DNA of 33,072 bases from Candidatus Zhuqueibacterota bacterium (GTDB taxonomy: Bacteria; Zhuqueibacterota; Zhuqueibacteria; Zhuqueibacterales; Geothermadaptataceae): NCBI GenBank assembly GCA_015491485.1, contig WFVT01000304.1:1-33072 (forward strand), read 5' to 3'. Numbering within the stretch: the first letter of the stretch is position 1; each line of letters starts with the position of its first letter. The notes under the pieces were generated by a model. It saw only the letters and a list, made by a program, of their open reading frames with translations. It searched no databases and was not told where the DNA came from. Made by a program: the position numbers and the translations under genes. This document shows, one piece after another, positions 617 to 21,593 of the stretch.

Positions 617-3600
617 ATGAAAAGTCCAGCATACGACATGGCATCACGACGTCTTCTGACTGTTCTGCTCCTCATTAGCGGCTTGTTTTGGCTGATCCCA
701 CGGGCGGCCCTGGCACAAATCACTTCAATTACGGTGACACCGAGCAACGCCGCCGCGGGTGAAGAGACCATTTATGAGGTTCAATTCACTCCATCTGTGG
801 ATATTTTAAATAATGATCAGTTGGTTTTCGATTTTCCCTCGGGTTTTGATGCTTCCAGCGTGATTGTTGCCAGCGCCATTTCCGGTATGGATGGCGGCTT
901 AACGGTAACCAGCACGACGACGTTACAGGTGGTTTTAACCCGCGATGCCACGGGGACCACCGTGACGGCGGGTACCCCGGTTACGGTGCGGTTTGGTAAC
1001 GTGGCAAATCATACCGTGGCTGCCGATACCTATACGCTGGATGTAACGCTAAGAGATAATGCCGGAACGACAACGAAAGACACCGGAACCTCCTCGGCGT
1101 TCACCATCACCCACAATCAGTTGGATCATTTTAGTGTTTCCAACTCGGCGGGAGGACTGATCGGAACGCAAACCGCGGGCGTATCTTTTGATATCCGGGT
1201 GATTGCCCAGGATGCTTACAATAATACGGTCACCTCATTCACCGGGACCGTTTCCATCGATGACGTCACCGGGACGATCTCCCCCACCACCAGCGCAAAT
1301 TTCACGGCGGGAGTGCTGTCAAGTCAGACCGTTACTATTACGGAAGCCAATTCGAACAATAAAATCACCGTCACCTCTGGAGCGGTTACCGGGACCTCCA
1401 ACACATTTGCGGTGGACCCGGCCTCTCTGGATCATTTCACGCTGTCAAGTATCGCCAGTCCGCAGACGGCGGGTACCGCGTTTTCGGTTACCATTACGGC
1501 GGAAGATGCGTATGGTAACCGGGTGACCGGTTTTAACGGCACCGTGAACATCAGTATCAGTTCCGGAACGGTGACTCCGACCACCAGCGGCAGTTTTGTG
1601 AATGGCGTCCGTACGGAATCCATCAATGTACTCACCGCCGGTACGGGGCTGACACTGACCGTGGATGATGGATCGGGAAATACCGGCACCTCGAACAGCT
1701 TTGATGTCAACCCCGGCGCTCTGGATCATTTTCTGGTAACGGCACAGGGTGGCGGAGCCATCGGAACGCAAACGGCGGGTACGGCATTCGATATCGCCAT
1801 TACCGCACAAGATGCTTACAATAATACTGTCACCAGCTTTACCGGGACGGTGACCCTATCGGATGTCACAGGCACCATTTCACCGACGACCAGCGCCAAT
1901 TTTACCAATGGCGTGCTTGCTTCCCAGTCGGTGACCATTACCAAAGCATCCAGCAATGTAACCATTACCGCCACCGCAAGCGGAAAAACCGGCACCTCGA
2001 ACAGTTTTACCGTAAATCCAGCGGCATTGGACCATTTCACCATTTCCACCATTCCGAGTCCGCAGACCGCTGGAACCGCATTCCCCGTTACCATCACGGC
2101 ACAGGATGTCTATAACAATACGGTAACCGGGTTTTCCGGCACGGTCAATATCAGTATCAGTTCCGGAACCGTAACCCCGACTACATCCGGTTCATTCAGC
2201 GGCGGCGTGCGCACCGAATCCATCAATGTGCTCACTGCCGGTACGGGGCTGACGCTGACTGTGGATGATGGTTCGGGAAATACCGGCACCTCGAACACGT
2301 TTGATGTCAACCCCGGCGCCCTTGACCATTTTGAAATCACGGCCACCGACGGCAACAATATTCCGGCTCAAAATGTCGGCCAATCGTTTGATATACGCAT
2401 TGAGGCGCACGACGGCAACCATAATATCGTTACCAGTTTTATCGATCCGGTGACCCTCTCCGATTTGACCGGTACCATTTCCCCCACCACCAGTGCAACA
2501 TTTACCGCTGGGGTGCTGGATACGCAAAGCGTCACCATTACCAGTACCCAGACATCGAATACCATTACGGCGACCGGCGGCGGCAAATCCGGTACATCCA
2601 ATGCGTTTGACGTCAACCCCGGATCCATCCAGCATATCGTGTTGCGCACGGCTCCAAACGGCGGCGGCGTGGAGTTCGCCGACTACCAGATGACTGCTGA
2701 TGACTCTGTGACCATCTGGGCCGCCGGGTACGATATCGGAAACACCTATCTGGGCGATGTGAGTGTGACCTGGTCGAGTACCGGGGCGCTGGCACCGGCC
2801 GCTTCCGGAACCGGCGCATCGTTTACCTTCAAGCCGACAACCGCCAGTGTCAACGGCACCACCGGCACCATCGTTGGCACCCACTCCACCGCGGGTAGCG
2901 ATGCCACCGGTACGATCACGGTAACGCCGGGCGTGCCTTCGGGCGCTGTGACGTTGACTCCCTCGCCCGCGGCGATTCCGGCAGACGGCACCAGTACCTC
3001 CACCATTACTTCGTCCATCATTGTGGATGCCGACGGCAATGCCGTCGGTCCCGGCCGGCAGTTTACGGTGCTTTTGCCTTCGGTGGGAACCATTCCGGAT
3101 ACGCAAGATGTGAATGCATCGCTGAACGGGATTCAGGTGGAGACCAACAGCAACAGTCAATTGTCGTTTCTGTTTAAGGCGGATACCGTGGGCGGCGAAG
3201 CCGTTATTTCTGTGGCCAGTGTGGAAGGATCGGCAGCCGGAAACACCCAGGTGACCGTTGGAAATATACAAATCACCGCCATCAATGCCCCGCAATATGT
3301 CACCCGGGGACAGCAAGATGCTCAGGTCACCATGGCCGTGCGGAATATCGGCTCCAGCACCGTGTCTCTCACCTCAGCCAATTTAACGTTTACCGGCACC
3401 GGCGGTTTTGACCGTGCGGCGGATTATCCCACCATTACCCGCGCCGATACCATCACTGCCATTCCCGGCGGCGTAACCGCCAATTTGATTTTCCTGGTGG
3501 ACGTCAGCGCAACGGCTACCATCGATACGGTCACCATTGACGGCGTTGTGAACGGCACCATCGGTGGCACCCCGGTTTCGGATACCGCAGCCGACAGCAC

Positions 3601-6600
3601 TGCTCGTTGGCTGGTTCAAAAACCGGCGGCTTTGCTGGTTCAGTCGGTTACCGGGCCGGACTCTGTGGCGCAGGGGCAGCAAAATATCGACGTTGCGGTC
3701 TGGCTGGCGAATAACCTGGGCGATGGCCAGACGGCGACCGCTGTGATCGACAGCATCGTGCTGTCATTCCGGAAAGGCGCCGCCGATGTCAATAGCCAAT
3801 ATATTGTCACTGAAGTGGGCAGCAATCCCACGACTCTGGCGGGGGGAACCCGTTCCGCCTTTCACTTCACCGTCAATGTCGGAGCGGCGGCTGATACCGG
3901 GGCGGTCATCATCGATGCCATGGCATATGGAAAGGATCAAAATGCGCAAACCCTGATTTCCGATGCCAATGGTGCGGATACCACGCACACCTGGAATGTA
4001 TCCACAGCCGCAGCGTTGCAAATCGTGTCCATCACCCCCAGCCAGCCATCTGTAACCGCCGGTATGACCAAACAGTGGATTGCCAAAATGGCGGTAGCTA
4101 ACAACAGCTCATCCACGATTCAGTTGGATTTGAGTGCAACATCCACCTACATCCGATTTTACAGCGGCGCCAATAACGTCACGTCGGAATACACGATCAC
4201 TCAGCCCACACAGTTGAAAAGCGGCGGTACGGTACTCGGTCCCAGTATCACCGATACGCTGGAATTCGTAATTACGCAAACCGGCACCACTACAGGCAAC
4301 ATTATCATTTCCGGCCGGGTTGCCGGAACGGATTTGGGGCCGGGACTGCCGGTGAGCGATGATACCAACGACGGCGGCAAAGGTCAGGTGGCGGTACAGA
4401 CACCGGCCGATTTGCAAATAACGGCGATTGAGCCGTCGCAAGCCGCGGCGACTGTGAATCAAACCCGGCCGTGGTCGCTGGCGGTCAAAGTCAAAAACGC
4501 CGGTGGTGCAGATATTCGATTGACCTTTCAAGCCGACTCGACCACGATTTCGCTGTCCGATACCACCGGCTACCGCTGGACCCGCCCAACTCAGCTTTCC
4601 GGGGGAGGCGCCATTTTGCCCGGGAACAGCAGCGGAACGCTGGTATTCACGGTTGATACCACCGGTTCGAATCTGGGAGTCAATCGGGTCAATGCAATTG
4701 TGTCCGGATTTGAGATCAATACCGGAACCTTTTTGAGCGATACCACGACCACCGTAAATGACACCAGTTTTGTAGTCCAGACCCCGGCGGTGATCCGGAT
4801 TGACAGCACGTATATTGACACCACCACAGCACCGAATCCACCGTTCGTCAATAACAAACAGACGTATAAAATCAATGTGCTGGTGAGTAACTCGGGCCAG
4901 GAAGCGGTGGATAGTTTGCGAATCCAGCTAACCACCACGGGCGTTTCCGCGATTGGTCCGCAAACACCGGATTATGCTACCGTGCCGGGAAACGGCAGTT
5001 CCACGGTGGGCATACAGGTTACGGCGCCCGACTTCGAAGCATTGGAAACCTTTACGGCGCAAATTGTTAAGGCTGTCAGCCGCAACACCCAAACCGTGCC
5101 CACGGTTTTGCCGCCGGTGGACACGACCGAGACGGTGCAATCGCAAATTCCAGCCGGATTACAGATACTCCAGGTTGCCACTTCCGACACCGCCGTTTCT
5201 GCCAATCAGATCAGCCCCTGGCAAATCTTTGTGGTGGTAAAGGATACCGGTTCCTCGGGCATTCTCTTTCAGCCCAAAGCGGAAGACATTACTTTTAAAA
5301 TGAATGGAGTCGTGCGCACCGATTTTGAAGTCGCTCCACCAACCCGGTTGAATGGGCGGGCCAACCTGTTTCTGCCGGGCGGGGAGACCGATACTCTGGC
5401 TTATACCGTCAACCGTACCGGAAAACAGGGCGGGGTTGCGACCATTATTGCCAAAGTCGGTGGCTCCGACATCAATGACCGGAGTGCTCTGGAAAGCTCC
5501 GACAGCACGCAAATTGCCATCGAAACCAGCGCGTTTGTGCGCATCATCGACACCTCACCGATAGTGAACAATCTCATTTCGCAGGACATCGGCCGGGTCA
5601 ATATCGGACAGGTGTTTCAGATCAAAGTCACGGTGGAAAATGCCGGCCTCGAGCCCGTGAAGGATGTGGTGGTGCAACTGCAGAGTGCGGGACCGTCGCA
5701 AATTGCAGCGCCTATTGATACCATCGCCAATCTGGCTGCGCAAAGTACGGCCTCTCTGTTTTTTACCGTACGGGCGGATAGTTCGATCAATCTAACCGGT
5801 GAAGATTTTCAATCCAAAATTCTGGCAGCCACGGCCGTACAGAGCGGCAAGCCCGCTCCCATCCGCGCCCCTTCCGATGATTTTGCGCGCATTTTGATCG
5901 AGTGGCCGGCGCTGTTACAAATCCAGGCGAATACGGCGCCCAGCGGTGGAAAGCTTGCCGTGGGCCAATCGTTTACGTTCTCCGCCCTGGTCAAAAATCT
6001 CGGCGACGCCCAACTGGCATCCGGTGGCAAAGTTACATTGCAGTTGCCGACCAACTATCAAACCAATGATCCCTTAACCCGCGATTTTACCGCCGGTACG
6101 CCGGTGAACTGGACGGTCACGGCGCCGCCGGTGCCCAGCGGGCCTGATACGTTTGTGGTGCGGATATCAACCATTCCCAACGATATTAACATCAATGCTC
6201 CCGCAGCGGTCGCGCGTCAGGCGGACACCCTTATTGTAGAAACCGACACCACCCGCATCGAAATCGATTCTTTGTATGTCAGCGCACCGGAGGGCGCCAG
6301 AGACGACACCCTGTCAACGGATCAATTGTTCACCCTGGCGTTGTCCATTGACCGGACGCCGAATTTGCCCAATATCACCGCGACGCTCCGCCTGCCGCCG
6401 GGGTATAGTTTCCGGTTCGGTCCGGCGGATTCCAGCAAAAATATGCCGCTCGGAACCAGCGTGGTATATTGGGACGTTCGTACGCCGGGATTGCCATCTG
6501 CGGGACCGGATCCACTGGTGGTGCGCGTTTATGGAACAGACGCAAAAAACAACCTCATCGAATCGTATGACACTTTGCACGTACAAACCGTGCTGAGGGC

Positions 6601-8479
6601 ACAGCTTAAAGTGTCGAGCCGGATTATCAGTCCGCCAGGGGCGGAAACCGGAAGCCTTGCCCGGGGACAGCGTTTTGTGCTGCGGGCGTTTATCGAGAAT
6701 CAGGGCACAGCCCGAACGGTGGGGAAAGCCGAGCTGCGTCTCGATCCGGGCGCCACTGGAGTCACCACCAGCGATACGTTGATCAAGCAGGTGGATGTTG
6801 GTGCTTTTGTGGATTGGGAGCTGAAGGCACCGGATACCGTATCGAGTCAGAAGCCCATTACGGTCCGCATCCACCGGACACCGAAAGATGAAAATACCAA
6901 TCAGATTGCAGCGTGGGTACAAAATGGCCGCTCCACTCTGCTGGTGGAAACCCGGGATGTCGGAAAAATCACCGCGGGGTCACTGCAAATCACCAGTCCG
7001 GTTGGCGCCACCGATGGGGTTTTGAGCACCGAACAGACTTTCACCATCGGGACTACGCTGAACTGGACGGATGTGGCGGACATTCAAGCCGAGGTGGTAC
7101 TTCCTCCGGGATTCACGGCGGCCGATAAAATCGTACAGCCCAACAATAAAAACACAACCGGCACCGAATTTTTGAGCTGGCAGATCCAGGCGCCGAAATC
7201 ACGGACGGACCAGGCGGCGATTTTTGTGGTTGTTCGCGGACGAGATGCAGCGGATACCACCCGTATCACGGTGAATAGCGATACGCTGTCGCTGCGTGTG
7301 GTGAATAAAGCGGTGCTGACGCTGAGAGCGGAAATCGTGGATCCGGCAACCGCAACCGACGGTGTAGTCACCACGGATCTGGAGTTTACCGTGCGGGCGA
7401 TTGTTCAAAATCAGCCCAATGCTGCGGGCGTGGTGGGCAGTGACAGCATCCGGATGACCTTGCCGCCCGGATATAGCAGTTCTGAACCGGCGGTTAAATC
7501 CACGCAGGACGGTGTCGCCGAATGGCGCATCAAAGCGCCTTCGGCGCCGCACAAAGAGCCGCGTTCCATTCGATTTGCCGTGCTGGCGCATCCGCGGGAT
7601 GAGAACAGCGAAGAGATTGTATTTATCTCGCCCTCTGAAGTGCAGATTTCCATTTTAGCCGAACGCAGTCAGTTGGTGGTGCAAGAAGTCGCCTTTAATC
7701 CGGAGCCGACAATTTCTGCCGGCCAAACCGACGTGCCGCTGATCAAACTGCAATTTGAAAATACCGGCTCCCCGGGATCGAGCAACATTCTGGTTAAAAA
7801 GATCACGGTGGATGTCTTGGATCGGGATGGACAGCCGCTGCAGGCTTCGGATGTTTTTGCCGCGCTGAAAATTACGCGCGAATCCGACAATACGTTGTTT
7901 GCGCAGAAAGCAGCGGTACCGGGCAATACGGCGGTGGAGTTGAACTTTTTGCAGGATGCGGTTCTCGAACCGCAAACTCCCATTGTTTTTGTCATTTCGG
8001 CGGATATTTCTCAAAACGCCAAGCTCAATGCGTTTAACTTGCGGCTCTCCAGTCAAAATCAAATAACCGCCATCGATCAGGACAGCGATCAGCCGGTCAG
8101 TGTGGAGATATTCAACCAGGAAGGCCAAAAAAGTGCGATCGAAACCGGCAAAATGGTGCTGATCGACCGCAAGTTTACCAACAGCTTTTTTAATCGCCCC
8201 AATCCGTTCGGTTCCTCCGAGCGCCCGGTGACCAAATTCATCTATCATCTGGAGAAAAACTCCGACGTGACTCTCCGGATTTATACCCTGTTCGGCGAGC
8301 TGGTATGGGAGAAGCGGTTTAGCGCAAGCGATCCACAGGGACAGGCTGACGGAGGGCCGAAAGTCATTACCTGGAACGGCACCAACGGTCGCGGAATACG
8401 CGTCTTAAATGGCGTTTACCTTGCCGTTCTGACTACCAACGCTGGAACTGTCACCACGAAAGTCGCGGTGATCCGATGA
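617..8479 (+). CDS. Giant repeat-rich secreted surface protein with T9SS/FlgD-like C-terminal sorting domain
   Basis: A 2620-residue protein. The signal peptide spans residues 1-34 (ending AALA-Q); M8 is an alternative start. Residues 35-165 resemble the upstream small protein. Residues 169-670 are five Ig-like repeats of the LDHF...SPQTAGTAF type, in an alternating A/B pattern. Residues about 880-2420 hold many degenerate CARDB-like beta domains (recurring N.G......V.L and P.GA.DG.LST.Q.FT patterns). The last 100 residues (NRPNPF at 2526, then Y.L......L.IYTLFGE, W.GTN.RG, NGVYLAVL, ending KVAVIR) match the FlgD-like/type A sorting domain that directs proteins through T9SS in the Bacteroidetes group. 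I infer an extracellular adhesin, sheath or matrix protein. It is translationally coupled to the next gene (ATGA overlap), whose PorV-like domain belongs to a family that carries such substrates across the outer membrane. No catalytic motif was seen. Confidence 0.85.
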   Translation: MKSPAYDMASRRLLTVLLLISGLFWLIPRAALAQITSITVTPSNAAAGEETIYEVQFTPSVDILNNDQLVFDFPSGFDASSVIVASAISGMDGGLTVTSTTTLQVVLTRDATGTTVTAGTPVTVRFGNVANHTVAADTYTLDVTLRDNAGTTTKDTGTSSAFTITHNQLDHFSVSNSAGGLIGTQTAGVSFDIRVIAQDAYNNTVTSFTGTVSIDDVTGTISPTTSANFTAGVLSSQTVTITEANSNNKITVTSGAVTGTSNTFAVDPASLDHFTLSSIASPQTAGTAFSVTITAEDAYGNRVTGFNGTVNISISSGTVTPTTSGSFVNGVRTESINVLTAGTGLTLTVDDGSGNTGTSNSFDVNPGALDHFLVTAQGGGAIGTQTAGTAFDIAITAQDAYNNTVTSFTGTVTLSDVTGTISPTTSANFTNGVLASQSVTITKASSNVTITATASGKTGTSNSFTVNPAALDHFTISTIPSPQTAGTAFPVTITAQDVYNNTVTGFSGTVNISISSGTVTPTTSGSFSGGVRTESINVLTAGTGLTLTVDDGSGNTGTSNTFDVNPGALDHFEITATDGNNIPAQNVGQSFDIRIEAHDGNHNIVTSFIDPVTLSDLTGTISPTTSATFTAGVLDTQSVTITSTQTSNTITATGGGKSGTSNAFDVNPGSIQHIVLRTAPNGGGVEFADYQMTADDSVTIWAAGYDIGNTYLGDVSVTWSSTGALAPAASGTGASFTFKPTTASVNGTTGTIVGTHSTAGSDATGTITVTPGVPSGAVTLTPSPAAIPADGTSTSTITSSIIVDADGNAVGPGRQFTVLLPSVGTIPDTQDVNASLNGIQVETNSNSQLSFLFKADTVGGEAVISVASVEGSAAGNTQVTVGNIQITAINAPQYVTRGQQDAQVTMAVRNIGSSTVSLTSANLTFTGTGGFDRAADYPTITRADTITAIPGGVTANLIFLVDVSATATIDTVTIDGVVNGTIGGTPVSDTAADSTARWLVQKPAALLVQSVTGPDSVAQGQQNIDVAVWLANNLGDGQTATAVIDSIVLSFRKGAADVNSQYIVTEVGSNPTTLAGGTRSAFHFTVNVGAAADTGAVIIDAMAYGKDQNAQTLISDANGADTTHTWNVSTAAALQIVSITPSQPSVTAGMTKQWIAKMAVANNSSSTIQLDLSATSTYIRFYSGANNVTSEYTITQPTQLKSGGTVLGPSITDTLEFVITQTGTTTGNIIISGRVAGTDLGPGLPVSDDTNDGGKGQVAVQTPADLQITAIEPSQAAATVNQTRPWSLAVKVKNAGGADIRLTFQADSTTISLSDTTGYRWTRPTQLSGGGAILPGNSSGTLVFTVDTTGSNLGVNRVNAIVSGFEINTGTFLSDTTTTVNDTSFVVQTPAVIRIDSTYIDTTTAPNPPFVNNKQTYKINVLVSNSGQEAVDSLRIQLTTTGVSAIGPQTPDYATVPGNGSSTVGIQVTAPDFEALETFTAQIVKAVSRNTQTVPTVLPPVDTTETVQSQIPAGLQILQVATSDTAVSANQISPWQIFVVVKDTGSSGILFQPKAEDITFKMNGVVRTDFEVAPPTRLNGRANLFLPGGETDTLAYTVNRTGKQGGVATIIAKVGGSDINDRSALESSDSTQIAIETSAFVRIIDTSPIVNNLISQDIGRVNIGQVFQIKVTVENAGLEPVKDVVVQLQSAGPSQIAAPIDTIANLAAQSTASLFFTVRADSSINLTGEDFQSKILAATAVQSGKPAPIRAPSDDFARILIEWPALLQIQANTAPSGGKLAVGQSFTFSALVKNLGDAQLASGGKVTLQLPTNYQTNDPLTRDFTAGTPVNWTVTAPPVPSGPDTFVVRISTIPNDININAPAAVARQADTLIVETDTTRIEIDSLYVSAPEGARDDTLSTDQLFTLALSIDRTPNLPNITATLRLPPGYSFRFGPADSSKNMPLGTSVVYWDVRTPGLPSAGPDPLVVRVYGTDAKNNLIESYDTLHVQTVLRAQLKVSSRIISPPGAETGSLARGQRFVLRAFIENQGTARTVGKAELRLDPGATGVTTSDTLIKQVDVGAFVDWELKAPDTVSSQKPITVRIHRTPKDENTNQIAAWVQNGRSTLLVETRDVGKITAGSLQITSPVGATDGVLSTEQTFTIGTTLNWTDVADIQAEVVLPPGFTAADKIVQPNNKNTTGTEFLSWQIQAPKSRTDQAAIFVVVRGRDAADTTRITVNSDTLSLRVVNKAVLTLRAEIVDPATATDGVVTTDLEFTVRAIVQNQPNAAGVVGSDSIRMTLPPGYSSSEPAVKSTQDGVAEWRIKAPSAPHKEPRSIRFAVLAHPRDENSEEIVFISPSEVQISILAERSQLVVQEVAFNPEPTISAGQTDVPLIKLQFENTGSPGSSNILVKKITVDVLDRDGQPLQASDVFAALKITRESDNTLFAQKAAVPGNTAVELNFLQDAVLEPQTPIVFVISADISQNAKLNAFNLRLSSQNQITAIDQDSDQPVSVEIFNQEGQKSAIETGKMVLIDRKFTNSFFNRPNPFGSSERPVTKFIYHLEKNSDVTLRIYTLFGELVWEKRFSASDPQGQADGGPKVITWNGTNGRGIRVLNGVYLAVLTTNAGTVTTKVAVIR
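1121..2626 (+). repeat. Alternating A-B-A-B-A tandem array inside the giant surface gene
   Basis: Five in-frame units begin with codons for LDHF at 1121, 1427, 1721, 2027 and 2321; a degenerate sixth (IQHI) begins at 2627. Spacings are 306, 294, 306, 294 and 306 nt, so A units are 102 residues and B units 98, with an exact 600-nt superperiod. A units carry TGTISPTTSA and B units carry SSGTVTPTTSG. DNA identity at the 600-nt offset is high in the B units: a 20-nt block at 1550-1569 recurs exactly at 2150-2169, and the stretch from 1621 closely matches that from 2221. This fits duplication of a two-domain unit. Confidence 0.9.
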
Positions 8480-10461
8480 ATAAACAACGAAACGGCATCG
8501 AGATAGAAAGCAACATGGTCGCAAAAAATCGTACATGGCAGCGCATGAGAAATCGGATGAGCAAACACACCGGTTGGCTGGTGCTGGCTCTGCTGTTCGG
8601 GGTCGGCACGCCCGCAATGGCGCAAAGGGCCGATGGCGGCTTTGAAGGCATTTTTTCGTATGGAGTGGGCGCCCGGGCGCTGGGCCTTGGCGGCGCTTAT
8701 ATTGCCGAAGCGTCTGACGCATCGGTGGTCTATTGGAATCCGGGTGGACTTGATCGGTTGTCGCGCAAATCCATGACTCTGTTTTATTCCACTCTCCCCC
8801 TGGACGGCCAATACAATTTTATCAGTTATGTTCATCCGACGGTATCGTCCGGCACGTTTGGCGTTGCGGTTTTGCGCGTGGGCACGGACGGAATCGTGGA
8901 ACGCGATGAACTGGGCGATGTTCTCGGAAGGTCCAGCTTTTCGCAGATTCAGTTGCTCATATCTTATGGAAAACAGTTGCCGTACAATTTATCGATCGGG
9001 GCTTCGTTGAAAATCGAGCAGCAGGACTTTTTGTTTTCACAGGGGCAGATCAGCGGACGCGGCGTCGGTGCGGATGTGGGGGTGATGTACCGCCCGGACT
9101 GGGGACCGGAATTTCTGCAAAATCTTTCATTGGGCGTTATTATACAAAATGCTATACCGCCGATTGTGAGAATTGCAGAAGCGCAGGTCCGGGTGCCCCG
9201 GAATTATAAATTCGGGGTGGCGAAATGGTTTCGCCTGTCTTCCAGAAATGATGGATTGGGCATTTATGGAGATATCGAAAAAGGCGAACAAAAAGACATT
9301 AAAATGCGTTTCGGCGTGGAATATGCCTATCAAGGGGGGGCGATGTTGCGGTTAGGGTTTGCCGAACGGCAACTGGTGTTTGGCGCCGGAATCAACATCA
9401 ACCGCTTACAGATCGATTATTCCTATGGCAGCTATGATTTTAGTCCCGAATTTCCGCAAAATCATCGCGTATCGATCAGCCTGACCTTTGGCAAATCCAA
9501 ACAGGAAATCATCGAGCTGGCCAAACGAGAGCGAGAACTTGCCATCGCCCGAGAGGCGGCGCAACGGGCCGAATTTCAGCGCAAGCTGGAGATTAAAACC
9601 AACATCGAAGCCGGATTGAGCTTTTTCCAGAAACAAAAATATTTTGACGCACTCATTAAATTTAACGCTGCGCTCAATCTCGACCCGGACAATGAAGAAG
9701 CCGCAATGTGGGCGCGACGCGCTGAACAAAAGTTGAAAGAGGAAGAAGAACGGGAGCGGGAACGTTTACAAAAACTGGCCGCCGAAAAAGCCGAGGAACA
9801 GCAGCGCAAAGCGTTTGTACAAAATCAGCTCCAAAAAGGTATCAGCTTTTTCAATGCCGGAAAATATAACGAAGCGCTGGCGGAATGGCGCATCGGATTG
9901 GAGCGCGACCCGGATAATCCGAGCTTGAAAAAATGGATTGCCAAAACCGAAGAGCAGATTCAGCGCCGGATTCGGGAACTCCGGCGGCAAGCCGAGCTGC
10001 TCGCCGCGCGCGGCCGCTATCTGGAAGCCATCGATCGGCTGAGTGAATTGAAGCAATTCGGCGTCAATGATGAAAAATTGCTGGCGAAGGTCAATGCAGA
10101 CATCGCCCAGTTCCGCCGCAAAATGAATTACGAAGAGGCATATCGCCGCGGCGTGACGGAGTATTTCAACAAGAATTACAAAGCCGCCATGCAATTCTTT
10201 GAACAGGCCCTGCGCCTCGATCCGAACAATTCCAATGTAAAAGAGTATTATAGAAAAGCTGAAGCCCGGGCCAACGCCCGTGAAGAACCGTTTAAGACGC
10301 CGGAAATTGAACAGAAATATAAAAAGGCGGTTTTGCTTTACGCTCAGCGGAAATATGAGGCGGCATTGAAACTCTTAAAAGAGATTGAAAAAGAACAGCC
10401 ATACAGTAAACAAATTTTAAAACTGATCGACGATACCGAAGAGGCCTTACGTAATCGATAG
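8476..10461 (+). CDS. PorV/PorQ-like outer-membrane beta-barrel protein fused to C-terminal TPR repeats
   Basis: A 661-residue protein. The first ATG overlaps the upstream stop by 4 nt; ATG codons at 8515 and 8560 would give more typical signal peptides. The export signal ends at AMAQ near residue 50. Residues about 52-345 have the PorV/PorQ (UPF0164) signature: YGVGARALGLGGAY, then A.DASVVYWNPGGL, then repeating amphipathic beta strands ending in SISLTFGK. A charged, probably coiled-coil linker follows. Residues about 374-661 hold roughly five TPR-like units, for example KYFDALIKFNAALNLDPDN and NYKAAMQFFEQALRLDPNN, presumably periplasmic. PorV proteins shuttle T9SS substrates or anchor at the outer membrane. 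The coupled upstream gene encodes a protein with a T9SS-type C-terminus, so a dedicated export or attachment partner is a reasonable inference. The TPR tail is not part of classical PorV. Confidence 0.85.
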   Translation: MNKQRNGIEIESNMVAKNRTWQRMRNRMSKHTGWLVLALLFGVGTPAMAQRADGGFEGIFSYGVGARALGLGGAYIAEASDASVVYWNPGGLDRLSRKSMTLFYSTLPLDGQYNFISYVHPTVSSGTFGVAVLRVGTDGIVERDELGDVLGRSSFSQIQLLISYGKQLPYNLSIGASLKIEQQDFLFSQGQISGRGVGADVGVMYRPDWGPEFLQNLSLGVIIQNAIPPIVRIAEAQVRVPRNYKFGVAKWFRLSSRNDGLGIYGDIEKGEQKDIKMRFGVEYAYQGGAMLRLGFAERQLVFGAGININRLQIDYSYGSYDFSPEFPQNHRVSISLTFGKSKQEIIELAKRERELAIAREAAQRAEFQRKLEIKTNIEAGLSFFQKQKYFDALIKFNAALNLDPDNEEAAMWARRAEQKLKEEEERERERLQKLAAEKAEEQQRKAFVQNQLQKGISFFNAGKYNEALAEWRIGLERDPDNPSLKKWIAKTEEQIQRRIRELRRQAELLAARGRYLEAIDRLSELKQFGVNDEKLLAKVNADIAQFRRKMNYEEAYRRGVTEYFNKNYKAAMQFFEQALRLDPNNSNVKEYYRKAEARANAREEPFKTPEIEQKYKKAVLLYAQRKYEAALKLLKEIEKEQPYSKQILKLIDDTEEALRNR

Positions 10462-10533: not shown

Positions 10534-13500
10534 TTGTTTAAAAACGTTATAAAAGAGCAGTTAAAGGTTCCTGCACACATCGATTACCTGGGCGAACTGC
10601 GTGATTTTGTGGTTCGCGTGGGACGGAAGTATGGTGTGTCTGAAAAAATCATCAACTCTTTCAAGCTCGCTATCGATGAGGCAGGAACCAACATCATCCG
10701 GCATGCCTACCGCGATCACGATGAGCCCGGCTTTATTTTATTGCGGGTCATTGTCCGAAAAGCAAGCATCACGGTCAGTCTCATCGACCAGGGAAAATAT
10801 TTTGATCCCCGCACCGTTGGCAGCCCGGATTTGAAGCGGTATGTCGATATCGGCAAAAAGGGGGGGCTTGGCATTTTCATCATCCGCAAGTTGATGGATG
10901 AAATCGATTATCGGCGTACCGAAGAAGGAAACGAGCTACGGCTGACCAAGTATCGAGTCGATGAGAAAAAGCAGGGCGTCAAGGCACTGCCGGAAAAGGT
11001 CAAGGGGATTCCGCTTTCCCTGAAAGCCAAATATTTCATTCGTACCGCCCTGGCGATTACCCTCGTGATTGCTGGCGTTTATTCCGTTTACTATTACCGG
11101 GTGGCTGAGCAAATCCGGAATGTGTATTTGGATACCCTCACCGAAATCGGGCACCAGGTCACCAAAGAGCTGATCCAGGAGCCGCACTACTTTAAATTGG
11201 AAAACCTTCATCATTTATACGCCAATGTGCTGAATCTCTATAAAAAATATGAAGATGAAATTTACGAATTATATGTAATCGATAAAGACGGATTGGTGGA
11301 GGTATCCAGCGATACGGCGAAAATCATTTCGGGCAGCGAAAAGGTTTTGACGGAACGTCAGCCGGTACGGGATAATATATTTCTCTATACCATTGAAAAG
11401 GCGATGGAGGGAAAAGGTGCCGTAACCATTGATCTCTATGATTTTATTGAACCGATCAGGCTTCCCGACCAGGCTGAGCCGTGGGGAGAGCTGCATGCAC
11501 GGTTGTTGAAATCGCGAGTGGATGCGGAAATCTGGCAAAAACGATGGGAATACGGGCGGCTGGCACTGAGCATTCTTTTGATGAGCTACATTGGCACCCT
11601 GCTTTTGATCTATTTGCTGCTCAATCCATTCAAAAAGCTCGCCGATTGGATTCGCGCCCTCGACCATGGCGAGGTGCAGGACGAAATGGATATCGATTCG
11701 TCCACCGAAATCGGTGAAATCGCCAAGGCGTTCAGCGAAATCACCACCAAATTTCGAGAGTCTCAAAAAAACCTGGCAGAGCAGGAACAGCTTCAAAAAG
11801 AAATGCAGGTGGCGCAGGAAATCCAGCAGACGCTCCTGCCTACCGAATTCCCCGAAATCGAAGGCTACGAAATCGCCTCGTATTACGAAGCCGCCAAAGA
11901 AGTCGGTGGTGATTATTTTGATTTTGTGGAAGTGGATAAAGATACCATCGGGATTGTTGTGGCCGATGTGTCCGGGAAAGGGGTCCCCGGCTCGCTGGTG
12001 ATGACCATGATCCGTACCGCGCTACGTACGGAAGCCCGCGGGGTTAAAGATGCTGCCGAGGTGCTGGCGCGAGTGAATGACTTCGTAGTCAATGATATGA
12101 AAAAGGGCATGTTTGTAACCATATTTTATGTAATTATTGACTCCAAGCGACGTCGGTTGAATTATGCCAGCGCCGGCCACAATCCGATGATACTGTACCG
12201 GCCGTCCACGCGTAAGACCTATTACCTGAACCCAAAAGGGTTCCCGATCGGCATTCAATTATCTGAAAAAGATTTGTTCCGGAAATCCATTGAATCTGAT
12301 ACCATCCAGCTCGCTGAAGACGATATCTTGCTGCTTTATACCGATGGCATTACAGAAGCCATGAATTCCCGCCGGGACCTGTTCGGCGAAGAGCGGTTGC
12401 TGAAAGTGATACGGGAATACGGGCATCTGCGAGTAAAGCCGTTCATCGAAAAGATGAAAATGGAGCTGACTTCCTTCACCGAAGGGCAACCGCAATATGA
12501 TGATATTACCCTGGTGGCGATTAAAGAGAAAACTTCGCCTGAAAAAGAGGAGCTGCGACGGGCCAAACTGGCGCACCAGTATATTGCCGAAGGCATGAGT
12601 ATTCGTGAGGCCTGCGAAAAAGCGGGCATTACCACTTATGCCTATTACAACAAATATAAAAAGCAATTTGAGCAAATCGGTGTTGATAATTACGAGGTGG
12701 ACGAGACAATCGCTGTTGAGGCGAAACATATCAGTATTGAAGACAAGGTCAAAATTTTCGACATCATCAAAAATCATCCGGAATACGGTGCAAAACGCAT
12801 TAGTGAAGAGCTGAATACGGAAAAATACGGCTATACCGTTATTCCGGAAAGCAAAATTTATGAAGAACTCGTTCGTAGCCGGCTGAACACCCGGCAATTG
12901 CGGGAAGCCTGGGTCGCGCGTGGCGGCAGAAATAAACGGCGGTTGAAGCCGCCGGGAACGCCCATGCTGACTCTGGATGGACGGATTATCATGGATCAGG
13001 ATATCGCCGATGACCGTCCGGCAGCTCCGCCTCCGCCGGCAGATGAAGCATCGCCGAAAGTGCCGGCTGCGGAAGGCGAATCCTCTCACGAAACCGCCGA
13101 AAAAGAAGAATCAGCGGCCCCAACGGTCGGCGAGGCTGCGGAAGATTTGAATATCGATGTTATTGCGCGTCCACTGGAAGAAGTTTTGGATAAAACCAAA
13201 GCCGATTCTGATACCATCGCGGATCCTGAAAGCCATGTGGAGGAAGCAAGTTCGGCCGCTCCTGAACACCGCTATCCCGAAACTGAAGATGGTCCAGAAA
13301 CGGAAGAACTGGTTTCTGCGACAACCGGAGATGATGAAACCATATCGTTTGAAAAACTGTTCGAAGGCGGCGATCTACTTGAAAGCGATGTAGAAAAGAA
13401 AGAAGGTGGCACCGGTCCCGACTCTCAAGTTCAGGAGGATCAAGAAGAAGCAGCCTCGGAATTGTATTCCAGTCCGGCGGCAAATATTCGTCAAAGCCTC

Positions 13501-14955
13501 ACAGTCGATGAAAAAGAACCGGATACGGCCATTCCAGAAGCCGATGATCGGGAGGCGAACAGGCAGTCTGACCAGGACCTCACCCTGAGCGCAGTGGAAG
13601 ATTTGCTGGAAAAGGAAATTTTTAACAGCTTTGAGGAAATTGCTTCCAGCCTTGTTGTGGAGGAAGGCGAAAAACAAAGCGAAAACGATGTTCCGCAAAC
13701 GCTTGACACCGACTCTGAACCGGCTCTGGATGCAGAACCGGACGATGCCGTTGTTAATGAAACGGAGAACGATTGGATTGAGGCAATAACCAAAGATGCC
13801 GGGACGTTGGAACCCGAGTCGGAGACGACCGAGTCGGCGCCACGTGAAAGCGAAGACACGCTGATACCCGAAGCCGCTTCTGAGACGGAACCAGTAGAAT
13901 CAGCAGAGGTTGAAGGCACTGAAACGGCTGTCGAACCGGAACCGCTTTCGGAATTGGCGGATCATGAAGGCGCTGCCGAGGCCGGCACGGAGGAGGCCCT
14001 GCCAGCGGCAGCGGAAGCGGAACAAGAAACGACGGAGGCGGTTCGGGAGGACGGTGAAGTGAGTACCCGTGAGGATTCTGAGATGGAAACGGAAGAATTC
14101 GAGGTTCCGCCCCCGGAGAGTCTGCCGCAAACCGAAGAAATTTTGGTTCAGGCCGCGGGTGAAATCCAGAACGAGTCTGAAACTTCTGATGAACTGGAAT
14201 TGATTCAGCCGCTTGAGGAAGCATTTGAGAAAACCACAACCGGGGAAGCCGTGCCGACACCGGCCGAACTACAGGGAAATGGTCGAGTCAAGCCCCTGGA
14301 AACGGAGTCTGATTATGAAGCAGAGGAAGAGGCGGAACCGGCACTAAGCGAGGATACGGCACAGCAAGACGATACCCATGTTTTCCTTGAGATTTTTTCC
14401 GATGAAGAGACGCCGGAAGAAAGCACCGATACCACTGGTGCCCGGTTGCGGCAGATAGCTTCGACGGAGATGGATTCCAGAATATCCAGCAGCAGGCCGA
14501 TTACTCAAAAAGAGGCGGTAACGGAAACCACCGCATCCGGGAGCCGCTTAACGCGGCAAGCAACTCATCCACCGCGATGGCTGGAAAGAGAAAAATTGCT
14601 TGTCCTCGGGCTGCGCTATTACAAAAACCGCGATTTTGACCGGGCCATTGAGATGTTCCAGGAAGCCATTCGCAAGTTTCCCGATTTCAAAGAAGCGCAC
14701 AGCATTTTGGGCAACGCCTATTTCCGGAAAGGCGCCTATGCTGAAGCCTTTCGGGCATATCTTCGCGTCCTGGAAATCGATCCGCGAGACATGACGGCGT
14801 TGGAAAACATCGGTGTGATTTATGCCAATCAGGGTGCTTTGGATAAAGCCATCCGCCAATGGCAGAAAATCCTGAGAATTGATCCCGGTCGGCATGATAT
14901 TCAAAAAAAGATTCAAAAAGCGTTGCAATTGCTTGAAGAAAAAGAAATTGGTTAA
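10534..14955 (+). CDS. Transmembrane SpoIIE/PP2C phosphatase fused to RsbW-type ATPase, HAMP, HTH domains, acidic linker and TPR
   Basis: A 1473-residue multidomain signalling protein. Residues 1-147 are an anti-sigma-kinase-type HATPase (N box with E49 and N53; DQGKYFDP from D85; GGLG at 110-113). Membrane segments lie at about 170-188 and 343-363 around a roughly 150-residue periplasmic sensor. HAMP plus coiled coil cover 364-435. A SpoIIE/PP2C domain covers about 436-665 with metal-binding aspartates D460 (GGDYFD), D478 (ADVSGKG), D604 (YTDG) and D657 (DDIT). Residues 677-715 look like a transposase-type helix-turn-helix (MSIREACEKAGITTYAYY). Residues 733-795 form a second helical domain shared with the next gene. 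About 830-1335 is a low-complexity, Glu/Asp-rich linker. 1349-1473 are TPRs. It should phosphorylate and/or dephosphorylate a STAS partner on serine in response to a periplasmic signal. The start is TTG with a weak AAAGAGAAG upstream, 72 nt after the PorV-like gene. Confidence 0.88.
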   Translation: MFKNVIKEQLKVPAHIDYLGELRDFVVRVGRKYGVSEKIINSFKLAIDEAGTNIIRHAYRDHDEPGFILLRVIVRKASITVSLIDQGKYFDPRTVGSPDLKRYVDIGKKGGLGIFIIRKLMDEIDYRRTEEGNELRLTKYRVDEKKQGVKALPEKVKGIPLSLKAKYFIRTALAITLVIAGVYSVYYYRVAEQIRNVYLDTLTEIGHQVTKELIQEPHYFKLENLHHLYANVLNLYKKYEDEIYELYVIDKDGLVEVSSDTAKIISGSEKVLTERQPVRDNIFLYTIEKAMEGKGAVTIDLYDFIEPIRLPDQAEPWGELHARLLKSRVDAEIWQKRWEYGRLALSILLMSYIGTLLLIYLLLNPFKKLADWIRALDHGEVQDEMDIDSSTEIGEIAKAFSEITTKFRESQKNLAEQEQLQKEMQVAQEIQQTLLPTEFPEIEGYEIASYYEAAKEVGGDYFDFVEVDKDTIGIVVADVSGKGVPGSLVMTMIRTALRTEARGVKDAAEVLARVNDFVVNDMKKGMFVTIFYVIIDSKRRRLNYASAGHNPMILYRPSTRKTYYLNPKGFPIGIQLSEKDLFRKSIESDTIQLAEDDILLLYTDGITEAMNSRRDLFGEERLLKVIREYGHLRVKPFIEKMKMELTSFTEGQPQYDDITLVAIKEKTSPEKEELRRAKLAHQYIAEGMSIREACEKAGITTYAYYNKYKKQFEQIGVDNYEVDETIAVEAKHISIEDKVKIFDIIKNHPEYGAKRISEELNTEKYGYTVIPESKIYEELVRSRLNTRQLREAWVARGGRNKRRLKPPGTPMLTLDGRIIMDQDIADDRPAAPPPPADEASPKVPAAEGESSHETAEKEESAAPTVGEAAEDLNIDVIARPLEEVLDKTKADSDTIADPESHVEEASSAAPEHRYPETEDGPETEELVSATTGDDETISFEKLFEGGDLLESDVEKKEGGTGPDSQVQEDQEEAASELYSSPAANIRQSLTVDEKEPDTAIPEADDREANRQSDQDLTLSAVEDLLEKEIFNSFEEIASSLVVEEGEKQSENDVPQTLDTDSEPALDAEPDDAVVNETENDWIEAITKDAGTLEPESETTESAPRESEDTLIPEAASETEPVESAEVEGTETAVEPEPLSELADHEGAAEAGTEEALPAAAEAEQETTEAVREDGEVSTREDSEMETEEFEVPPPESLPQTEEILVQAAGEIQNESETSDELELIQPLEEAFEKTTTGEAVPTPAELQGNGRVKPLETESDYEAEEEAEPALSEDTAQQDDTHVFLEIFSDEETPEESTDTTGARLRQIASTEMDSRISSSRPITQKEAVTETTASGSRLTRQATHPPRWLEREKLLVLGLRYYKNRDFDRAIEMFQEAIRKFPDFKEAHSILGNAYFRKGAYAEAFRAYLRVLEIDPRDMTALENIGVIYANQGALDKAIRQWQKILRIDPGRHDIQKKIQKALQLLEEKEIG

Positions 14956-14966
14956 ATAGTTTCCAT

Positions 14967-14995
14967 TTGACTTTCATTCATGGTTCTATTATATT
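14967..14995 (+). promoter_or_regulatory. Sigma-70-type promoter for the STAS gene
   Basis: TTGACT at 14967-14972 and TATATT at 14990-14995 are separated by exactly 17 nt. This predicts a start near 15002 and a leader of about 36 nt before the ATG at 15038. It uses the same two hexamers and spacing as the tRNA-Ser promoter at 19610. It would let the STAS protein be made independently of the phosphatase upstream. Confidence 0.65.
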
Positions 14996-15037
14996 AAAAC
15001 TTATGATGATCAAAGAACCTACAGCTAGGAGTTAGCC

Positions 15038-15730
15038 ATGGAAGGTATCCAGGTGTCGGTGGAAAGAGCAGGAATGAACAATAACATTGCCGTCATTAAA
15101 GTCGGTGGATATATTGATACCACCACCTCGGCTGAATTGGAACATGCTCTGGATTCCCTCCTCAAAGCGGGAATGAACCGCATCATTATCGACCTGGGTA
15201 ATGTGGATTATATCAGCAGTGCGGGTTGGGGAATTTTCATCAGTGAGATCAAAGGCATTCGCGAAAGAGGGGGCGACCTGAAATTGGTGCGCATGATTCC
15301 GGATGTCTATGAGGTGTTTGAGCTGCTGGAATTCCACTATATTCTCAAAGCGTTTGATACGCTGGAAGAGGCGGTGCGTGATTTTGACCGGGGCGCATCT
15401 TTTGAAGAGAAGCCGGAAACGAAAAGCGTGGAATCAGGCGGCGATTCCGGGACTGTGACCGCCGGAACGGAACCGCTGGTTGCGGAGCAAAAAACCACAG
15501 TCAGTTCCGCCGAACCACGTCAGCCGCAAAGCATTGATGACAAAATTCGGGAGGTCGTGATCAACAACCCGGATGCCGGCACCTTGAAAATCAAAAAGCT
15601 TTTGGCCTCACCTCAATATGGGAATATAAAAATCGGATTTTTCGAGTTGCGTCGGCGGCTGAAAAACCTCAACCTGGATTCCAAAGCGAAACGTGTCGAG
15701 TTTTTTAAACAGCGGGCGATGAGCTCCTGA
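15038..15730 (+). CDS. STAS-domain anti-sigma-factor antagonist with extra C-terminal helical domain
   Basis: A 230-residue cytoplasmic protein. Residues 1-115 are a STAS domain of the SpoIIAA/RsbV family. The phosphorylation loop reads VDYISSAGWG, and Ser61 aligns with SpoIIAA Ser58. Residues 116-165 are a polar linker. Residues 166-230 (from IDDKIREVV to the end) match residues 733-795 of the upstream phosphatase: I(E/D)DK(V/I), then an NP or HP turn, then I...L, then YG...I, then a basic tail. The protein is therefore the likely substrate of both the kinase and the phosphatase halves of that protein. AGGAG 6 nt before the ATG supports the start. No sigma factor is visible in the window, so the final output target is unknown. 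Confidence 0.88.
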   Translation: MEGIQVSVERAGMNNNIAVIKVGGYIDTTTSAELEHALDSLLKAGMNRIIIDLGNVDYISSAGWGIFISEIKGIRERGGDLKLVRMIPDVYEVFELLEFHYILKAFDTLEEAVRDFDRGASFEEKPETKSVESGGDSGTVTAGTEPLVAEQKTTVSSAEPRQPQSIDDKIREVVINNPDAGTLKIKKLLASPQYGNIKIGFFELRRRLKNLNLDSKAKRVEFFKQRAMSS

Positions 15731-19650: not shown

Positions 19651-19734
19651 GGAGGGCTAGACCTAATTGGTAAGGCAGCGGTCTTGAAAACCGCCGGGCG
19701 TAAGCCCTTGGGGGTTCGAGTCCCTCGCCCTCCG
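19651..19734 (+). tRNA. tRNA-Ser(UGA)
   Basis: A 7-bp acceptor stem GGAGGGC/GCCCTCC, anticodon stem GCGGT/ACCGC with loop CTTGAAA (anticodon TGA), a long variable arm (GGGC-GTAA-GCCC) and a T loop TTCGAGT. The long arm and anticodon identify serine, reading UCA and likely other UCN codons. The acceptor and D arm differ from the other three serine tRNAs here, which all begin GGAGAGGTG. CCA is not encoded. Confidence 0.93.
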
Positions 19735-19746
19735 CTACGCATTGAT

Positions 19747-19835
19747 GGAGAGGTGCCTGAGTGGCTGAAAGGAGCCGCCTGCTAAGCGGTTGAGGGACTA
19801 AAATCCCTCCGAGGGTTCGAATCCCTCCCTCTCCG
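19747..19835 (+). tRNA. tRNA-Ser(GCU)
   Basis: Acceptor GGAGAGG/CCTCTCC, anticodon loop CTGCTAA (anticodon GCT), a long variable arm (GAGGGAC-taaaa-TCCCTC type) and T loop TTCGAAT. It reads AGC/AGU. It lies 12 nt after tRNA-Ser(UGA), so the two are probably one transcript. Six T residues follow the discriminator base. CCA is not encoded. Confidence 0.95.
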
Positions 19836-19872
19836 CTTTTTTATTATATCCCCAAACCTGTTCAGGTTCGAC

Positions 19873-21309
19873 GTGATTACAGTTCGATTCGCACCCAGTC
19901 CGACCGGCTATTTGCACATCGGAGGTGCTCGCACCGCCATTTTTAACTGGCTTTTTGCTCGGCAGCAAAACGGCCGTTTCATTTTGCGGATCGAAGACAC
20001 CGATCGCGAGCGCTCCGGAACGGAGATGGTTCAAGCCATTTTTGAGGGATTGCGGTGGTTGGGCCTGGATTGGGACGGCGATCCGGTGTTTCAGTCGCAG
20101 CGATTGGATATTTATCGCGACTATGCCAATCGCTTGCTCCGCGAAGGTAAGGCCTTCCGCTGTTTTTGTTCGGCGGAAAAAATCATGCGTCAACGCGAGC
20201 AGGCGGTGCGGCAAAAAATCACTTTTCGGTACGACGGTACCTGCCGGAATTTGAGCGAAGAGGAAATTCAGCAGCGGCTGGAGCGGAACGAGCCGTTCAC
20301 CATCCGGTTTCGATTGCCGGAAGGCGATGTGCAATTTCATGACATGCTGCATGGCACCATCACGGTAGAACAGGAAGTGTTGGATGATTTCATTATCCTG
20401 CGCTCGGATGGCACGCCAACATATCACCTGGCCGTGGTGGTCGATGATTACGAGATGGGCATCACGCATGTGATTCGCGGTGATGACCATTTATCCAATA
20501 CCCCCAAACAGGTTTTGCTTTACGAAGCATTTGGGTGGCAGGTGCCGCAGTTCCTGCACGTGCCGCTGATTCACGGCCCGGATCGCCGGCGGCTCAGCAA
20601 ACGCCACGGCGCCACTTCGGTGCAGGAATACCGCGACCGCGGATACCTTCCCGAAGCGATATTCAACTACCTTGCTCTGCTGGGGTGGTCGCCGGGTACG
20701 GATGAAGAAATCTTCACGCGCGAGGAGCTCATCGAGCGATTCAGTCTGGATGGGCTTTCCAAAAGCAGCGCGATTTTTGATGAGCAAAAGCTGCTGTGGA
20801 TGAATGCCCAACATCTGTATCGGCTCAGCAGCGCCGAGCTTTTTGACCGGGTGGTTCCATTTTTGGCCAAAGCCGGACTTGCCGGGGAAGCTGAACTGCA
20901 GCAGCGCCGCGATTATGTGGAAAACATTCTCGAGCTGCTGAAGCCCCGTGCTAAACGGCTGACCGATTTTGCCGATCAGATGCACTACTTTTTTTACGAG
21001 CCCGAAGCCTACGACGAAAAAGGCATGAAAAAGCACTGGAAAGGGCTCGAAACCGCCGAGCGGCTGGACATGCTGCGGTCGCGACTGGCTGGATTGGAAA
21101 ATTGGACAGAGGCGGAAATCGAAGCGGTGGTTCGCGATCTGGCAGAGGAGTTGCAGATCAGTGCGGCCAAACTGATTCATCCGACGCGGTTGGCCATTTC
21201 CGGACGCACGGCCACACCGGGACTGTTTGAAGTGATGGCGCTTCTGGGACAAGACGTTGTGCTGCAGAGAATGAAAAAAGCGGTTGAAATCATCAAAAAT
21301 TCTTTTTAA
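19873..21309 (+). CDS. gltX: Glutamyl-tRNA synthetase
   Basis: A 478-residue class I aminoacyl-tRNA synthetase charging tRNA-Glu. The N-terminus reads VRFAPSPTGYLHIGGARTA (HIGH-type motif as HIGG). The Glu-binding and connective regions include FIILRSDGTPTYHLAVVVDD and HVIRGDDHLSNTP. The KMSKS loop appears as RRLSKRHG. A helical anticodon-binding domain fills residues about 310-478. Length is normal. The start is GTG at 19873, giving the usual family N-terminus. tRNA-Gln(CUG) and tRNA-Glu(CUC) follow directly, so one of its substrates is adjacent. Whether it also mischarges tRNA-Gln (non-discriminating form) cannot be told from motifs alone. Confidence 0.97.
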   Translation: MITVRFAPSPTGYLHIGGARTAIFNWLFARQQNGRFILRIEDTDRERSGTEMVQAIFEGLRWLGLDWDGDPVFQSQRLDIYRDYANRLLREGKAFRCFCSAEKIMRQREQAVRQKITFRYDGTCRNLSEEEIQQRLERNEPFTIRFRLPEGDVQFHDMLHGTITVEQEVLDDFIILRSDGTPTYHLAVVVDDYEMGITHVIRGDDHLSNTPKQVLLYEAFGWQVPQFLHVPLIHGPDRRRLSKRHGATSVQEYRDRGYLPEAIFNYLALLGWSPGTDEEIFTREELIERFSLDGLSKSSAIFDEQKLLWMNAQHLYRLSSAELFDRVVPFLAKAGLAGEAELQQRRDYVENILELLKPRAKRLTDFADQMHYFFYEPEAYDEKGMKKHWKGLETAERLDMLRSRLAGLENWTEAEIEAVVRDLAEELQISAAKLIHPTRLAISGRTATPGLFEVMALLGQDVVLQRMKKAVEIIKNSF

Positions 21310-21323
21310 ATTAACCGCGATTC

Positions 21324-21394
21324 TGGGGTGTCGTCTAGTGGCAGGACACACGGCTCTGGACCGTGGAACCGGGGTTCGAATCCCTGCACCCCAG
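21324..21394 (+). tRNA. tRNA-Gln(CUG)
   Basis: Acceptor TGGGGTG/CACCCCA with G discriminator, D stem GTCT/GGAC, anticodon stem CACGG/CCGTG with loop CTCTGGA (anticodon CTG) and T loop TTCGAAT. It reads CAG. It begins 14 nt after the gltX stop. CCA is not encoded. Confidence 0.95.
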
Positions 21395-21403
21395 CTCAAA
21401 ACT

Positions 21404-21476
21404 GGCGCATTCGTCTAGTGGCCTAGGACGCCGGCCTCTCACGTCGGTAACACGGGTTCGAGTCCCGTATGCGCCA
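21404..21476 (+). tRNA. tRNA-Glu(CUC)
   Basis: Acceptor GGCGCAT/ATGCGCC with A discriminator, D stem GTCT/GGAC as in the neighbouring tRNA-Gln, anticodon stem CCGGC/GTCGG with loop CTCTCAC (anticodon CTC) and T loop TTCGAGT. It reads GAG. Only 9 nt separate it from tRNA-Gln. Confidence 0.94.
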
Positions 21477-21506
21477 CTTCGCATTGAATTTCTAAAAGAA
21501 TGGGTT

Positions 21507-21580
21507 GCGCCCGTAGCTCAACTGGATAGAGCGCTTGGCTACGGACCAAGAGGTTGGGGGTTCAAGTCCTCCCGGGCGTA
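21507..21580 (+). tRNA. tRNA-Arg(ACG)
   Basis: Acceptor GCGCCCG/CGGGCGT (terminal G-U), anticodon stem CTTGG/CCAAG with loop CTACGGA (anticodon ACG at 21541-21543) and T loop TTCAAGT. A34 is normally converted to inosine by TadA so that CGU, CGC and CGA can be read. tadA is the next gene. Confidence 0.96.
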
Positions 21581-21593
21581 CTTGAAATAGACG

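Follow-up and report, generated by a model that had tools for sequence, protein, structure and literature searches.

The question raised by this locus is whether a SpoIIE-type phosphatase and the STAS protein encoded next to it share one and the same extra domain, and what such a domain would do on both sides of a partner switch. The first-pass annotation had proposed that residues 733-795 of the phosphatase and residues 166-230 of the STAS protein form one small helical domain common to both (hereafter domain X). The window, i.e., the whole stretch of 33,072 nucleotides analysed here, corresponds to contig C304 in a metagenome-assembled genome of KSB1 type, which totals 4.45 Mb in 397 contigs; the KSB1 phylum now carries the name Zhuqueibacterota (PMC11683472). 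The following features of the window are relevant here.

617..8479, + strand: gene for a 2620-aa repeat protein, upstream, in a probable operon by gene context
8476..10461, + strand: gene for a PorV-like plus TPR protein, upstream, in a probable operon by gene context
10534..14955, + strand: SpoIIE-type phosphatase gene (1473 aa), whose orthologues adjoin STAS-A in nearly all relatives
10570..10950, + strand: HATPase_c_2 (RsbW/SpoIIAB-like serine kinase) domain, residues 13-139 (Pfam E 4.7e-29)
11605..11733, + strand: HAMP domain, residues 358-400 (E 6e-5, just under the curated cut-off)
11938..12525, + strand: SpoIIE (PP2C/PPM) phosphatase domain, residues 469-664 (Pfam E 4.2e-51)
12559..12687, + strand: HTH1, residues 676-718, resembling the first HTH of IS481/IS3 transposases (weak Pfam HTH_28/HTH_Tnp_1 matches)
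12730..12924, + strand: domain X, phosphatase copy, residues 733-797 (profile, structure-model and NCBIfam comparisons)
12946..12981, + strand: KPPGTPMLTLDG motif, residues 805-816, immediately C-terminal to the phosphatase X
14587..14913, + strand: C-terminal TPR repeats, residues 1352-1460 (domain scan)
14967..14995, + strand: promoter-like TTGACT-N17-TATATT upstream of the STAS-A gene (conservation)
15038..15730, + strand: STAS-A gene (230 aa; STAS domain, flexible linker, domain X)
15077..15373, + strand: STAS domain with SpoIIAA/RsbV fold, residues 14-112 (Pfam E 6.4e-19)
15218..15220, + strand: Ser61, the predicted phosphorylation site, within the invariant YxSSAGWG
15533..15727, + strand: domain X, STAS-A copy, residues 166-230 (profile and structure-model comparisons)

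From its N-terminus, the phosphatase consists of an RsbW-like kinase domain, a hydrophobic/extracytoplasmic segment, HAMP, SpoIIE, HTH1, X, a long acidic linker and TPRs. The N-terminal domain also matched the NCBIfam RsbW model (E 5.5e-22, below the curated cut-off), and a strict N-box pattern for the kinase was passed in only 35 of 47 orthologues; the metal-site motifs of the SpoIIE domain were retained in 46-47 of 47. In the KPPGTPMLTLDG motif, the K, PG, P and final G were invariant among the aligned orthologues. The membrane anchoring of this protein is an unusual location for a DNA binder. STAS-A scored above the cut-off of TIGR00377 in NCBIfam, and Foldseek with its model returned STAS folds only, including a match to the SpoIIAA chain of 1th8 (E 1.9e-8). 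Ser60 and Ser61 are both invariant; by analogy with SypA S56 and CapS S54, Ser61 is predicted to be the phosphosite. The linker (residues 121-163) is predicted to be disordered. Upstream of STAS-A, the sigma-70-like promoter (TTGAC[AT]...TATATT) was kept in nine genomes from two families and was the only signal there, as no conserved palindrome was seen; Rfam gave no match within the region of the phosphatase/STAS-A pair.

The two X segments were compared by hhalign, with 37 copies aligned for the phosphatase and 46 for the STAS protein, and matched with a probability of 98.3% (E 2.4e-14, score 72.6). Among 200 controls with shuffled columns, no score exceeded 17.4 and no probability exceeded 6, and a reversed-column control gave a probability of 0.3. 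Plain BLAST with the window phosphatase already reached the STAS C-terminus in four relatives (L064, L096, L098 and L101; E 2e-6 to 9e-6). The phosphatase-X profile retrieved STAS copies phylum-wide and, conversely, the STAS-X profile recovered both X-bearing phosphatases of the host genome (E 7.6e-8 and 7.9e-11). AlphaFold models (mean pLDDT 73 and 80, with the blocks of X mostly at 83-90) placed four helices in each copy, at residues 166-176, 182-189, 201-210 and 216-229 in STAS-A and at 735-747, 753-760, 772-781 and 787-797 in the phosphatase, with similar lengths and identical order and gaps in a secondary-structure comparison. Since HTH families resemble one another, and the X of the window's STAS protein alone has no Pfam match, one might suppose that the two segments are unrelated look-alike HTHs that were captured independently or converged. 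This explanation, which we consider extremely improbable, is refuted by the profile comparison (E 2.4e-14, far above the shuffles), by the identical helix spacing and by the motif ELNTEKYGFT, which is not generic and is common to both copies in deep lineages. On profile homology and predicted helix layout, the phosphatase X and the STAS X are homologous copies of the same four-helix HTH-type domain. The proposal of a common domain is borne out by these data, and the positions given for it hold, with the phosphatase copy at residues ~733-797; the outcomes that the first-pass annotation had taken to speak against it, i.e., differing predicted structures or an alignment no better than background, were both looked for and neither was found.

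Comparison with mobile-element models indicated what kind of HTH this is. HTH1 plus X of the phosphatase corresponded to positions 1-112 of the IS481 transposase model NF033577 (NCBIfam) in all 21 orthologues (best E 6.8e-20; E 8.5e-9 for the window phosphatase) and to positions 98-187 of the IS3 model in 20 of 21. Among the STAS proteins, the X of STAS-B, a second X-bearing STAS protein of the host genome, matched IS3 positions 131-191 (NCBIfam), and X copies of STAS-A matched IS3 in 11 and IS481 in 7 of 46 cases. Matches of X to Pfam HTH_21, HTH_32 and HTH_Tnp_Tc3_2 were weak but recurrent; STAS X alone reached HTH_21 with a best E of 4.6e-7 and also matched HTH_Tnp_Tc3_2. A PDB sequence search with the X profiles gave nothing meaningful, and Foldseek with HTH1 plus X gave weak, non-significant matches, with TnsB and Pax paired domains leading the PDB list. 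Judged from these model matches, X is the second of the two HTHs that make up the DNA-binding region in IS481/IS3-type transposases; the phosphatase holds both (HTH1 and X) and the STAS proteins the second only. The earlier description of X as following a transposase-like HTH was right as to the HTH, which lies at residues 676-718, but the two are not separate, as HTH and X form one two-part transposase region. IS481/IS3 transposases likewise have this N-terminal two-part region; they differ in carrying a DDE/rve catalytic core, whereas in the phosphatase no such core was detected with Pfam or NCBIfam among the families listed, TPRs and an acidic linker being found instead, and in that the HTHs here lie inside signalling proteins and are inherited across the phylum.

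The distribution of X in the host genome is narrow. Profile searches (E up to 10) found five copies, two in SpoIIE phosphatases and three in STAS proteins, as well as one further chance match of 30 residues that contains a stop. The genome encodes 13 SpoIIE proteins, 11 of them without X, and at least 11 STAS hits, of which the 8 beyond the X-bearing three are all without X. The observation that classical RsbU/V/W and SpoIIAA/AB lack X stands, and it extends to these 11 SpoIIE proteins and 8 STAS hits of the host. No transposase matching either X profile was found in this genome. The second X-phosphatase (L115, on contig C310) is a paralogue and is preceded by matching gene types, i.e., a giant repeat protein and a PorV-like protein. 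STAS-B (contig C331, 238 aa) is encoded with a glycogen/starch synthase-type gene on one side and Poly_export/SLBB and Wzz/GNVR genes on the other. STAS-C (contig C54, 506 aa), whose X lies at the far end of an acidic linker of ~310 aa, is encoded downstream of Poly_export and Wzz/GNVR genes and upstream of a TPR gene; further genes 3' of it look, when read by eye, like tyrosine-kinase, sugar-epimerase and deacetylase genes. By gene context, both STAS-B and STAS-C sit in exopolysaccharide operons.

Across the phylum, 77 of 82 genomes carry X, including all 49 good ones, and each X-bearing frame that was inspected encoded, in full or in part, either a SpoIIE or a STAS protein. The phosphatase and STAS-A are adjacent in nearly all relatives inspected (mostly KSB1 lineages). 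The profile search suggested earlier, for neighbouring SpoIIE and STAS proteins that both carry X, shows the pair to be kept throughout the phylum. Outside the phylum, the search consisted of one pattern-based scan with a single query sequence, which reaches close relatives only; by contig coordinates, the checked records labelled Calditrichota, Deferribacteres and similar coincided with genomes of this phylum, with the exception of 'Cloacimonas 4484_140' (L104), which was unplaced. In a tree of X, phosphatase copies were placed apart from STAS copies (STAS-B being monophyletic at 0.99), which indicates that the duplication predates the sampled lineages. The tree thus shows, at the level of sequence, that both partners already carried X by the time the sampled lineages of the phylum split. 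In one family (f7), five extra phosphatases (L146-L150) keep X and have lost HTH1. X-less STAS paralogues occur in 8 of 8 genomes of this family and phosphatases with a degenerate X in 5, so a strict pairing of the two was rejected in favor of a loose link.

The two sides of the switch differ in charge. The recognition helix (helix 3) of X is basic in every STAS copy (mean +2.85 and minimum +1 for STAS-A, n = 46; +3.5 for STAS-B) and neutral or acidic in the phosphatases (mean -0.65); over the X core, averages were +7.1 for STAS-A, +11.8 for STAS-B and +0.9 for the phosphatase. The extra f7 phosphatases mostly have no basic X (charges of -4 to +3), which, together with their loss of HTH1, counts against DNA binding by the phosphatase X. 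The favored reading of these sequence features is that the STAS X would be a DNA-binding output and the phosphatase X a recruitment module. Upstream of STAS-A and STAS-B, the search for an X operator yielded no candidate. The only strong conserved palindromes were those upstream of STAS-B, and these were rejected as X operators because they lie at a sigma-54 enhancer-like distance and occur once in the genome.

It is also conceivable, although we regard it as doubtful, that X acts purely between proteins, with the phosphatase X pairing with the STAS X, no nucleic-acid binding, and some as yet unnamed protein as target in the manner of SypA. Opposite charges on helix 3 (neutral/acidic in the phosphatase, basic in STAS) would suit such docking, as would the retention of X by the f7 paralogues despite the loss of HTH1 and most basic residues, and with so many SpoIIE proteins (13) and STAS hits (at least 11) in one cell, insulation is needed. 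Co-divergence gave a result that flips with the genome subset chosen and is not taken as proof here. In a class-only subset, STAS-X tracked the phosphatase X (partial r 0.27, 0 of 300 permutations), exceeding other segments, and did not track HTH1 (-0.04), as docking of X on X would predict; with all 45 genomes, i.e., with deep lineages included, this signal was gone (partial r 0.06) and HTH1 took over (0.41). Furthermore, the STAS recognition helix is basic in 46 of 46 sequences, as expected of a nucleic-acid binder, and X-less STAS proteins occur in all eight f7 genomes but phosphatases with a degenerate X in only five.

Overall, we propose a sensor-driven, phylum-specific partner switch that acquired a transposase DNA-binding region of the IS481/IS3 type, with STAS-X binding nucleic acid and phosphatase-X recruiting, and we give this model about an even chance. 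The membrane-anchored sensor would phosphorylate Ser61 of STAS through its N-terminal RsbW-like domain, and the SpoIIE domain of the same protein would remove the phosphate. STAS-A would be the neighbouring substrate, and STAS-B and STAS-C are probably further substrates or outputs, probably phosphorylated and dephosphorylated by this sensor at a serine like STAS-A. With its flexible linker and basic recognition helix, the STAS X would most likely be a nucleic-acid-binding head, whose binding may depend on the dimer or complex state set by STAS phosphorylation, by analogy with CapS. The phosphatase X, having lost its basic face, probably recruits STAS-X proteins, either by contact of X with X or by way of shared DNA bound through HTH1, and such recruitment would let this phosphatase, one of 13 SpoIIE proteins in the cell, meet the correct STAS substrates. 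For SpoIIE and RsbU, loops of the phosphatase domain suffice for substrate recognition (PMC11418112), which means that extra docking is not required.

The components of SpoIIE-SpoIIAB-SpoIIAA and RsbU-RsbW-RsbV, i.e., a PP2C phosphatase, an RsbW-type kinase and a STAS protein with a conserved serine, are all present here; unlike in those systems, kinase and phosphatase are fused, no sigma factor is adjacent and X is on both partners. As the phosphatase has its own RsbW-like kinase domain, the system most resembles SypE/SypA and CapK/CapS. SypE of Vibrio fischeri likewise combines a serine kinase and a phosphatase in one protein that acts on a STAS phosphoserine protein, with a link to an exopolysaccharide locus and no sigma factor known (PMC8256260, PMC4517449, PMC3610818). 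SypE has a central response-regulator domain (PMC3610818), whereas the window phosphatase has HAMP and no receiver domain in the Pfam scan, and the membrane/HAMP sensor, HTH1, X, long acidic linker and TPRs are found in the latter only; SypA is a single STAS domain, to which the STAS proteins here add X. In CapK/CapS, a GHKL kinase phosphorylates a STAS serine, the STAS protein has a C-terminal HTH, the kinase also has an HTH and the output is sigma-free (PMC13373217). CapS is a STAS-wHTH repressor in which phosphorylation of STAS breaks the dimer and frees the DNA (PMC13373217; 2026). Its winged HTH is MarR/ArsR-like, whereas X is predicted to be all-helical and of transposase type; CapK is laid out as HTH-STAS-GHKL without a phosphatase, in contrast to the window protein with its SpoIIE phosphatase and other layout, and here each partner carries one homologous copy of X. 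The HTH of CapK is dispensable (PMC13373217), which cautions that an HTH on a kinase of this sort may be non-essential. The Pseudomonas biofilm phosphatase SiaA shares the HAMP-PP2C layout and the biofilm theme (NCBIfam E 8.6e-19, far below the cut-off), with the similarity limited to residues 349-663 and the HTH, X and RsbW-like parts outside it. A literature search on STAS/SpoIIE proteins with an HTH found CapK/CapS as the sole close precedent, and one on partner switching in KSB1 found none.

Given CapK/CapS (PMC13373217) and SypE/SypA (PMC8256260, PMC4517449), a sigma-free partner switch is no longer unprecedented; the earlier suggestion that no separate sigma factor takes part in this one is plausible. 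A classical sigma switch, in which the fused kinase would hold an unlinked SigB/F/G-like sigma factor until unphosphorylated STAS-A frees it and X would be a localisation aid, appears unlikely. It could account for the RsbW-like domain, for the invariant serine of STAS and for three full-length sigma factors in the genome that are distantly like SigBFG. However, none of these three reaches the family cut-off and none is in the window's locus, one of them adjoins a separate classical STAS/HATPase pair (contig C99), and the joining of kinase and phosphatase in one chain is the layout of SypE, which has no known sigma target (PMC4517449). A link to exopolysaccharide, suggested by gene context, would parallel SypE/SypA.

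Already known are STAS proteins that act on DNA through a fused HTH (CapS, 2026) and enzymes that serve as both kinase and phosphatase for a STAS protein (SypE); what is new is one transposase-derived domain on both sides of a switch, confined to that network in the host genome and found phylum-wide. The tagging of particular phosphatase-STAS sets by X bears on how one SpoIIE protein chooses its STAS protein among many look-alikes and on what roles STAS proteins play without sigma factors (PMC11418112; PMC4517449), as specificity and output become addressable through one module of 65 residues. The locus further provides a clear example of how the DNA-binding region of a transposase was absorbed into a core signalling system. 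Tentatively, a domesticated transposase region across the whole switch network may let the partners recognise each other and/or the same DNA and give sigma-free transcriptional (or promoter-local) control of surface polysaccharide phylum-wide. The shared X suggests that the outputs of the switch may themselves work on DNA, with no sigma factor in between.

Immediately behind the shared four-helix HTH-type domain (X), the phosphatase carries a short motif in which K, PG, P and the final G are invariant among the aligned orthologous phosphatases, and which is possibly a relic of transposase sequence.

Window 12946-12981: KPPGTPxLTLDG, immediately C-terminal to X
L146-L150 (G019:C23, G040:C169, G024:C248, G028:C39, G034:C32): second X-phosphatases, family f7

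A variant of this motif is still retained in the degenerate f7 paralogues, which comprise 1638-1990 amino acids, lack the first HTH (HTH1) and adjoin metabolic genes, with no neighbouring STAS gene. Both paralogous phosphatase loci, i.e., the window and L115 (same genome), have a giant repeat protein and a PorV-like gene upstream.

Window 617-10461: these genes, 5' of the phosphatase
L115:8998-18000: these genes, 5' of the paralogous phosphatase
Window 19652-22405: several tRNA genes, alongside the next feature
Window 22429-22694: large bacterial SRP RNA

The window's giant protein had no Pfam match; by eye, its C-terminal end resembles a FlgD-like sorting domain.

L038:4131-4275 (G000:C331): tandem palindromes and -24/-12-like site, 5' of STAS-B
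Window 14967-14995: sigma-70-type promoter, TTGAC[AT]-N17-TATATT, directly 5' of STAS-A

STAS-B is preceded by conserved TGT-N11-ACA palindromes in tandem and, approx. 90 bp beyond them, by a -24/-12-like site (TTGGCAC...TTTGA), an arrangement retained in two families. It occurs once in the genome and resembles a sigma-54 promoter together with its enhancer. As STAS-A has its own conserved promoter inside the operon, it may be expressed separately from the phosphatase.
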